A DNA stretch of 64,000 bases from Hyaloscypha bicolor E (taxonomy: Eukaryota > Ascomycota > Leotiomycetes > Helotiales > Hyaloscyphaceae), in contig NW_020194558.1 in NCBI RefSeq assembly GCF_002865645.1, positions 2,012,014 through 2,076,013 of the forward strand, in the 5' to 3' direction. The notes beneath the pieces are model-generated. The model had not been told where the DNA came from. It searched no databases and saw only the letters and a program-made list of their open reading frames with translations. Position 1 is the first letter of the stretch. Each line of letters starts with the position of its first letter. The position numbers were made by a program, and so were the translations under genes. Positions 59,840 through 61,117 of the stretch are shown here, in pieces.

Positions 59840-60202
59840 CTTGGAGGTGGACCCAAAAGAAAGGAAACGAACACGCGCCGATCAAGGAGGAAAACGTGAA
59901 GACATCTATATTCTTGCCATAAAGAATAGCGTGCAGAAGTGTCACCAGATCATAACGTTCAGGGACGGTTGAGGATGAAGAGGGCGGAGATGTTGTCCGC
60001 GTGGTTGACGTTTGTGACCCTTGGCATCTAGTTAGGGTTTAGTGGCTAAGTGATGGGCGGGACGGGGTGGTCTTGTGGCCAGCAACGGCTTTACAGTGTT
60101 CTAGATAGAACGCCCTTGGATTCGTTCCTTTACCGAATCGCTTAACAGAAACGTGTTAGCACACCAACACAGCTCGGAACTGTGAAAAGGGCTCAAAAAT
60201 GC
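59840..60202. other. Spacer between GH76 and tRNA genes
   Basis: No gene seen; probable GH76 promoter next to the coding start. Confidence 0.55.
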
Positions 60203-60211
60203 AAAAAAAAA
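60203..60211 (-). terminator. RNA polymerase III terminator of tRNA-Leu
   Basis: A run of nine T on the minus strand begins four bases after the tRNA discriminator base, the normal Pol III stop signal. Its presence argues that the tRNA gene is, or recently was, transcribed by Pol III. Confidence 0.85.
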
Positions 60212-60233
60212 TGCTGATGACGATGGGATTCGA

Positions 60234-60281
60234 CTAAAGTTTGTTAGAAAACAACTTTGAATTCAAATCAATTAAACTCAC
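60234..60281 (-). other. Spliceosomal-type intron inside the tRNA T loop
   Basis: 48 nt: donor GTGAGT, branch site TTCTAAC ending 13 nt before the acceptor-end AG, acceptor TTTAG. This is indistinguishable from the 46-57 nt introns of protein genes in this window. It separates T54 from T55 of the tRNA; removing it restores the TTCGAAT loop and the B box. Confidence 0.83.
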
Positions 60282-60304
60282 ACCCATGCTCTTTCGAACC
60301 AGTA

Positions 60305-60322
60305 TATTAGATTTCAGTTGTG
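60305..60322 (-). other. Canonical tRNA intron after position 37
   Basis: 18 nt inserted one base 3' of the anticodon. It contains CTGAA able to pair with TTCAG of the anticodon loop, the pairing expected in substrates of the tRNA-splicing endonuclease. Confidence 0.82.
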
Positions 60323-60334
60323 CCTGAAACTGGC

Positions 60335-60397
60335 CTGCAGAAAAGAGAGTTGTGAGTAATTATTTTCAAAGTTGGTGGCTTTCCTGGTTGCACATAC
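60335..60397 (-). other. Spliceosomal-type intron after the tRNA D stem
   Basis: 63 nt: donor GTATGT, a candidate branch site TTACTCAC, a pyrimidine tract and acceptor CTGCAG. It lies between tRNA positions 25 and 26. Removing it places G26 directly after the D stem. Confidence 0.8.
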
Positions 60398-60450
60398 GCC
60401 ATAACCGCTCGGCCACGTCACCTTTTTTAGCAATTGTCAAAAAAATGCCT

Positions 60451-60460
60451 TATTTTAATA
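60451..60460 (-). promoter_or_regulatory. TATA-like element upstream of tRNA-Leu
   Basis: TATTAAAATA on the minus strand, 29-38 bp before the tRNA 5' end, the distance at which TFIIIB is positioned in fungi that use upstream TATA elements. AT-rich surroundings make chance occurrence possible. Confidence 0.45.
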
Positions 60461-60707
60461 CATATCACTATTTCAAAATCTTCGCTCAAATAGGCTTAGT
60501 GTCCGCGTGAAAATGGGTCATAGGGAAGCTGATTGGCTATTGAGATGGTTTACCTTATGCTCAGCTGGGCTAGGAACTTCAAATTCTGAACATTTGTTAA
60601 ATTCTAATAAACACCAAGTATCGTATTCTAGTAACGGTCCAGTTAAGATTTCCTGCATATTTCTTGCATTAAGCCAGACCCCTGAGCGAATTAACGGATT
60701 GGCCCTT

Positions 60708-60765
60708 CTCTTTGTCTACCTTCCCTTTGTCTACCTGCTCTTTGTCTACCTTCTTTGTTCACCTT
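60708..60765 (+). repeat. 15-bp tandem repeat (CTCTTTGTCTACCTT type), about four units
   Basis: Units at 60708, 60723, 60738 and a shortened one at 60753 differ at one or two positions. Confidence 0.85.
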
Positions 60766-61117
60766 AGGTTTGTTTCTTTTTGCGACTCGAAATCTCAAAC
60801 AGAATCTACTCGAGTTCCTCAATGCTCGCTTTTTCTATTCACAATTACTAAAGTTCTCAATTCACATCTAAACAACGCCTTCCATAATCCCTTTCCCCGT
60901 GGTTGGAAGATGATTTACAAGAACACTTGGCATTAAACATAAGATGTACAATGTCCGTCCTCTAGACTCGGTCAAGATTTGTCCGGCTCCCACCGTTTTC
61001 TATTTTCTACATTATTCCTCAATTTTCTGGGTTATTGAACAAAACCCTCTGGATGACTCGGCCCATCTCCCCTTAGTGACATTACCCAGGTGCTTTGGCC
61101 CTTTTGCAAACCACTCT

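Follow-up and report, generated by a model that had tools for sequence, protein, structure and literature searches.

Can a nuclear tRNA gene carry introns of the kind that interrupt messenger RNA, and if one such gene exists, does it stand alone? The question is raised by the minus strand of the window, the 64,000-nucleotide stretch of Hyaloscypha bicolor E DNA analysed here, in which an earlier note had recognized a tRNA-Leu(CAG) gene with two spliceosomal-type introns in addition to a canonical tRNA intron. The anatomy of this gene, its splice signals and the recurrence of such introns in at least eleven further tRNA genes of this genome are firm. We consider it very likely that the window holds a working tRNA-Leu(CAG) gene with two mRNA-type introns and one canonical intron, whose transcript would be matured by two splicing machines.

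Anatomy of the window gene

All coordinates given in the earlier note proved exact. Removal of the three introns leaves a 79-nt tRNA-Leu(CAG) with no stem mismatches and a net score of 24.3 in a splice-aware cloverleaf finder written for this analysis, which seeks GT-AG introns with a loose branch motif within about 45 nt. The four stems, class II variable arm (11 nt), TTCGAAT T loop and discriminator A that had been described for the spliced form are all present, and the minimum-energy fold of the mature RNA contains every arm of the cloverleaf; the 97-nt form that retains the 18-nt intron has a minimum-energy fold that differs around the anticodon. The same scorer gives no cloverleaf for the unspliced genomic sequence, and the gene is the sole match of at least 19 on both strands of the window. 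Two nulls exclude a chance cloverleaf as its source: the highest score among 175 cloverleaves from 8 Mb of first-order Markov sequence was 18.4, short of 19, and reversed real sequence (0.67 strand-Mb) yielded 12 cloverleaves with a top score of 17.1.

Table 1. Features of the tRNA-Leu(CAG) locus, in window positions.
Feature	Position	Strand	Description
tRNA-Leu(CAG) gene	60422-60215	minus	2 spliceosomal-type introns and 1 canonical tRNA intron
Upstream element TATGTATTAAAATAAG	60449..60464	minus	AAATAAG begins 33 nt 5' of the tRNA; probable external Pol III promoter element
Exon 1	60398..60422	minus	Acceptor 5' half, positions 8-9, D arm; A box intact
Spliceosomal-type intron 1	60335..60397	minus	63 nt, GTATGT..CTCAC..CTGCAG, at 25/26
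Exon 2a	60323..60334	minus	Position 26, anticodon stem 5' half, loop; anticodon CAG = 60326-60324
Canonical tRNA intron	60305..60322	minus	18 nt at 37/38; CTGAA pairs with anticodon-loop TTCAG
Exon 2b	60282..60304	minus	Position 38, anticodon stem 3' half, class II variable arm, T stem 5' half, T54
Spliceosomal-type intron 2	60234..60281	minus	48 nt, GTGAGT..CTAAC..TTTAG, at 54/55; branch A 10 nt before end; B box interrupted
Exon 3	60215..60233	minus	Remaining T arm, acceptor 3' half, discriminator A
T9 run, Pol III-type terminator	60203..60211	minus	Begins 4 nt 3' of the tRNA

The 18-nt intron is the only one in the gene that has both the position and the anticodon-intron pairing of a canonical tRNA intron. 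The outer two had been credited with the signals and lengths of mRNA introns. This holds for the 48-nt intron, for which GT-AG is the single best boundary pair by cloverleaf alone. It holds less well for the 63-nt intron, the longest of the 17 described below, whose branch candidate CTCAC lies 18 nt from the 3' end and for which GT-AG ties with TA-GG one base further. The mRNA introns of two genes in the window, positioned by visual inspection of tblastn alignments to homologous proteins, measure 46, 46, 47 and 59 nt, and their branch A precedes the 3' end by 8-11 nt. No weight was given to the 11 candidates (47-112 nt) that a cruder script for joining ORFs produced. The best reading remains two spliceosomal-type introns and a canonical one, as the earlier note had it; this reading is supported, with the splicing itself deduced from sequence. 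The A box is contiguous and the B box is split at 54/55, and the gene in this respect departs from the definition of a tRNA gene by contiguous internal boxes. Exon 2b (60304-60282) also holds GGTTCGAAAGA, a partial B-box-like motif that might substitute for the split box.

The earlier note had held that standard tRNA finders could overlook the gene, and they do: ARAGORN reports nothing, and Rfam gives no tRNA at its gathering cut-off, nor at E<=10 over 59900-60800, where two weak, unrelated matches appear. On the spliced sequence ARAGORN does find a tRNA, yet it reads the anticodon loop out of register and names the gene SeC(tca), with an intron of 20 nt.

Split tRNA genes elsewhere in the genome

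No comparable nuclear tRNA gene was known to the earlier note, but the gene does not stand alone. The assembly (82 Mb, 76 contigs) was surveyed through loci drawn from a tRNA covariance model (best 63 of 3058 candidates scored), D-arm patterns and small fetched regions, with multiple loci of one gene counted once. Including the window gene, twelve split genes were resolved, with 17 introns in all, one of them doubtful. After splicing, nine of the twelve have no stem mismatch, and Thr, Met and Lys have one each. The Arg(TCG) gene, which has a GC-AG intron, was resolved by eye and then scored.

Table 2. The twelve split tRNA genes and the positions of their spliceosomal-type introns.
Gene	Introns
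Leu CAG (window gene)	25/26, 54/55
Leu CAA	6/7, 60/61
Arg TCT	7/8
Arg TCG (L052, minus strand)	7/8 and 10/11; 3-nt exon TGG between GC-AG and GT-AG introns
Glu CTC	6/7
Thr AGT	53/54
Ala AGC	51/52
Met CAT	6/7 and 2 nt 5' of T stem
Ile AAT	6/7, 27/28
Second Ile AAT	6/7
Cys GCA	30/31
Lys CTT (L110)	8/9

Seven genes were resolved without such an intron: Ala TGC, Lys CTT, Gly GCC (two), Val TAC and Asp GTC (two). The resulting proportion of 12 split among 19 resolved genes is a biased fraction, because most loci were detected through intact parts, as matches to the tRNA model or as intact D-arm patterns. Several candidates were left out of the twelve. In the Phe-like loci L034, L054 and L072, with 1 mismatch, the finder picked GT..AG inside an apparent long canonical intron; L067 has 2 mismatches, as has L087, which lacks a GT-AG intron; and L109 (321 bp) is a decayed Glu-like copy. 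The T loop of L109 contains a GTAAGG..CTAATAG stretch, and the locus is perhaps a dead split gene.

The survey also met other tRNA-like sequences. L026-L031, L035-L037, L039 and L042-L045 belong to an AT-rich, RIP-like tRNA-like repeat of many copies (Rfam tRNA, 33-45 bits), which lies mostly near contig ends and resembles a subtelomeric or SINE-like element. Seven loci (L092, L093, L100, L103, L107, L067 and L004) have D and T arms and a long insert around the anticodon in which no GT-AG ends were seen; several of them have a CACAGAAAC-like motif, and L004, L103, L092, L100 and L067 exceed the Rfam tRNA cut-off. L061 (Rfam 38.5 bits) is a tRNA-like sequence, possibly foreign or pseudogenic, whose anticodon loop is of an unusual AGA type.

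The earlier note had also asked for other tRNA-Leu(CAG) copies to be counted. No further near-identical copy is present among the matches listed by whole-region and joined-exon searches of the genome, and of 16 matches to the D arm (<=2 mismatches) only Leu CAA, besides the window gene, resolves as a tRNA. The window gene, with exons no longer than 25 nt, was itself absent from the joined-exon matches, so a second split Leu(CAG) could escape that search; an unbroken copy should have appeared.

The split genes are not always invisible to standard tools, since Rfam reaches its gathering cut-off in genomic form for seven of the eleven others, although four of these match the model only in part. 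It fails at that cut-off to detect the genomic sequences of the window gene, Leu CAA, Met, one Ile (L076) and Cys. ARAGORN detects a tRNA in three of the twelve genomic forms, with the correct anticodon in Arg TCT and Met, and in all twelve spliced forms, with the correct anticodon in nine; besides the SeC(tca) call for Leu CAG, it names Met as Leu(aag) and leaves Lys unnamed. Arg(TCT) is recognized unspliced by both programs (57.1 bits in Rfam) because the final intron bases replace the acceptor strand: as read from the sequence, the stem formed in this way contains two mismatches and two wobble pairs, whereas splicing leaves one wobble pair and no mismatch. For tRNAscan-SE 2.0, the available text describes a search for non-canonical introns in archaeal tRNAs and does not contain the word spliceosome (PMC8450103).

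Splice signals, flanking elements and conservation

The ends of the 17 introns are GT-AG in 16 and GC-AG in one, with the proviso that the finder sought GT-AG, so that other inserts fall outside the set. CTAAY with its branch A 10-12 nt from the 3' end occurs in 16 of the 17, where the finder had demanded a looser motif within about 45 nt, and lengths range from 48 to 63 nt (median 51). In a blind boundary test, all shifts of start and end up to 12 nt were scored for each intron by the cloverleaf alone. No shift was better in 16 of the 17 introns; one to four boundary pairs tie for best, and the tied sets include GT-AG in 15 introns and GC-AG in one. The chance of this result is roughly 10^-29 to 10^-30 from locus dinucleotide frequencies, a figure that takes the introns as independent and applies to a set found by seeking GT-AG. 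The remaining intron, Met intron 2, has 9 better and 18 equal boundary pairs, and can alternatively be read as part of a 74-nt canonical intron, the top choice of the finder and also that of ARAGORN on the genomic form. It is doubtful because the cloverleaf leaves its ends unfixed and this canonical reading exists.

In their ends, branch-site distance and length, the inserts agree with U2-type spliceosomal introns, and their excision as lariats would be expected. A group I or group II self-splicing intron was rejected, with no Rfam match of this kind in 59900-60800 (E<=10) or at the 12 loci (gathering cut-off); 48-63 nt is also too short for the catalytic core of either group. A common mobile origin was rejected as well, since pairwise BLAST among the 17 introns gives matches of 8-15 nt only (best E 0.006).

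A pair of Ile(AAT) genes, one on contig 55 and the other on contig 76, allows the introns to be compared with their host. The mature sequences are identical (74/74). In the intron that both carry at 6/7, 36 of 57 aligned columns agree, where shuffled introns give a mean of 32.4 and a maximum of 38. This intron has diverged to near randomness except for its splice signals, the parts kept being GTAAGTTC and ATTCTAACA. Alignment of the 100 nt upstream of each gene gives 59 matching columns out of 113. At 27/28, where one gene is filled and the other empty, the comparison gives GTATGT..AATAG exactly. The two Lys(CTT) genes form a similar pair, L110 having an intron at 8/9 that L003 lacks, though they also differ elsewhere.

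Flanking elements are shared by split and unsplit genes. RRATAAG, a motif derived from this same gene set, lies within 80 nt upstream of 17 of the 19 resolved genes (10/12 split, 7/7 unsplit; 53 nt examined for L110), against about 3% of random 80-nt windows of the same loci. A run of at least six T lies within 80 nt downstream of all 12 split genes and 5/7 unsplit genes, against about 4% of random windows; the longest T run inside the split genes is 5. Introns fall inside the B box, positions 52-62 of the tRNA (PMC3978253), in three genes (Leu CAG, Leu CAA and Thr) and inside the A box (8-19) in two (Arg TCG and Lys). With internal boxes interrupted in this way, the upstream element likely carries initiation. 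Neither element serves to list genes genome-wide: the upstream pattern gives 682 matches against 222 in a reversed control, and is too common, with many matches repeating the same letters, while the B-box pattern gives 138 against 119 and is too noisy. The near-background B-box count agrees with a scarcity of contiguous T arms in the genome.

Among the Pol III RNAs surveyed (tRNA, U6 and 5S), the split state was observed in tRNA genes only. All four U6 matches among the best candidates scored are contiguous over the whole model, one of them diverged, and all 17 matches to 5S rRNA among the best candidates scored cover the whole model, 16 of them above the cut-off. Two U6-like matches, one diverged, lie about 400 bp apart on one contig (L079 and L080).

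Alternative readings, precedents and meaning

In the mechanism that we propose for the window gene, Pol III would begin at the upstream AAATAAG/TATA-like element, since the B box is split, and would terminate at the T9 run. The spliceosome would cut out the 63- and 48-nt GT-AG introns; the tRNA body could then fold, and the Sen endonuclease and tRNA ligase would take out the 18-nt intron. The order of these steps, transcription by Pol III, spliceosomal excision and the function of the product are all inferred from the DNA sequence.

The inserts might instead be excised by the tRNA splicing endonuclease, like the ectopic bulge-helix-bulge (BHB) introns of red algae, nucleomorphs and archaea, with GT..AG incidental. 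Endonuclease-processed ectopic tRNA introns are known in Cyanidioschyzon and nucleomorphs (PMC4090602, PMC3978253), and many introns of the Guillardia nucleomorph lack a defined BHB motif (PMC3978253, in the part available). The present introns do not bear out such an origin. By a simple pairing rule, BHB-like junctions occur at none of the 17, against 237 of 4800 random placements; GT/GC-AG ends in all 16 introns whose boundaries the cloverleaf defines, together with CTAAY at a fixed distance, would be unexpected under endonuclease processing; and the Ile intron has retained its splice signals while the remainder diverged. We regard excision by Sen as highly improbable, and only a little more credence is due to the reading of the window gene as a pseudogene with two insertions, with an unbroken tRNA-Leu(CAG) serving elsewhere. 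That tRNA copies do decay in this genome is seen in L109. Yet the window gene has intact stems, T loop, discriminator, upstream element and terminator, eleven other genes are in the same condition, and no unbroken Leu(CAG) is among the matches listed by the joined-exon and D-arm (<=2 mismatches) searches.

A further reading makes the inserts 5'-UTR introns of the ORF at 59839-58097, lying within a dead tRNA relic. This ORF, presumably GH76-like as judged from its sequence, is on the same strand, about 380 bp downstream of the tRNA. However, removing both introns restores the cloverleaf exactly, the T9 run separates the tRNA from the ORF, and eleven tRNA genes elsewhere share this anatomy, which leaves this reading next to no probability. 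For two other ORFs, the closest matches with a named organism are in Lachnellula, at 93% identity to L. suecica for a Bax-inhibitor-like ORF and 84% identity to L. hyalina for a kinesin ORF, with higher-ranking matches existing for both; they suggest a position near Lachnaceae within the Helotiales.

Taken across the genome, a broader reading is that spliceosomal introns have spread into a large share of the tRNA genes, into acceptor, D, anticodon, variable and T regions, that the spliceosome has become essential for tRNA, and that Pol III relies on an upstream promoter. We hold this to be likely, if somewhat less assured than the reading of the window gene itself.

No report of a spliceosomal intron in a nuclear tRNA gene was among those listed by the literature searches, which lay outside subscription journals and preprints. 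The nearest precedent is provided by the spliceosomal introns in the rDNA of ascomycetes and lichens, which are likewise short mRNA-type introns in a structural RNA gene that Pol II does not transcribe (Bhattacharya et al. 2000, cited in PMC8527467). In yeast, one such lichen intron was removed from Pol I rRNA (PMC8527467). There the host is rRNA, whereas here the hosts are many tRNAs of 72-79 nt, predicted Pol III transcripts in which one exon measures 3 nt. Fungal U6 snRNA genes carry mRNA-type introns, i.e., spliceosomal introns in a Pol III gene, and form a second precedent. U6 is a single gene whose product resides in the spliceosome; in the present genome, tRNA genes are split instead.

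In the number and placement of their introns, the split genes resemble those of Cyanidioschyzon merolae, nucleomorphs and Crenarchaeota, in which a tRNA gene may also have several introns at D, anticodon, variable and T positions, and permuted algal tRNA genes have upstream TATA-like or AT-rich stretches comparable to the upstream element found here (both from the available parts of PMC4090602 and PMC3978253). In contrast, the introns of those algae, nucleomorphs and Crenarchaeota are described there as of the endonuclease type, with BHB-type junctions or very short inserts (PMC4090602, PMC3978253); the introns of H. bicolor E have GT-AG ends, CTAAY and no BHB. The 18-nt intron of the window gene belongs with the canonical eukaryotic tRNA introns at 37/38, whereas the 63- and 48-nt introns, at 25/26 and 54/55 with spliceosomal signals, do not. 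None of the kinds of tRNA gene that we found described uses the spliceosome, and the split genes could represent a further kind; alternatively, one may see in them a familiar kind of intron whose host is new.

Within the Helotiales, a survey gives tRNAscan counts of 50-52 for three species of a mycorrhiza group with a mean of 82; two other groups average 135 and 169 (PMC11678538). We conjecture that such low counts may reflect hidden split genes.

If the split genes are functional, Pol III transcripts can gain spliceosomal introns in large numbers, and the genome offers a natural setting in which to test how Pol III initiates when the B box is interrupted. It would also expose a blind spot in tRNA annotation, as standard eukaryotic annotation would overlook many such genes. 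Under the same condition, tRNA production in Hyaloscypha bicolor E requires the spliceosome for a task that textbooks assign to other enzymes, two unrelated machines splice one transcript, and the capacity for mRNA splicing is linked to the supply of tRNA.
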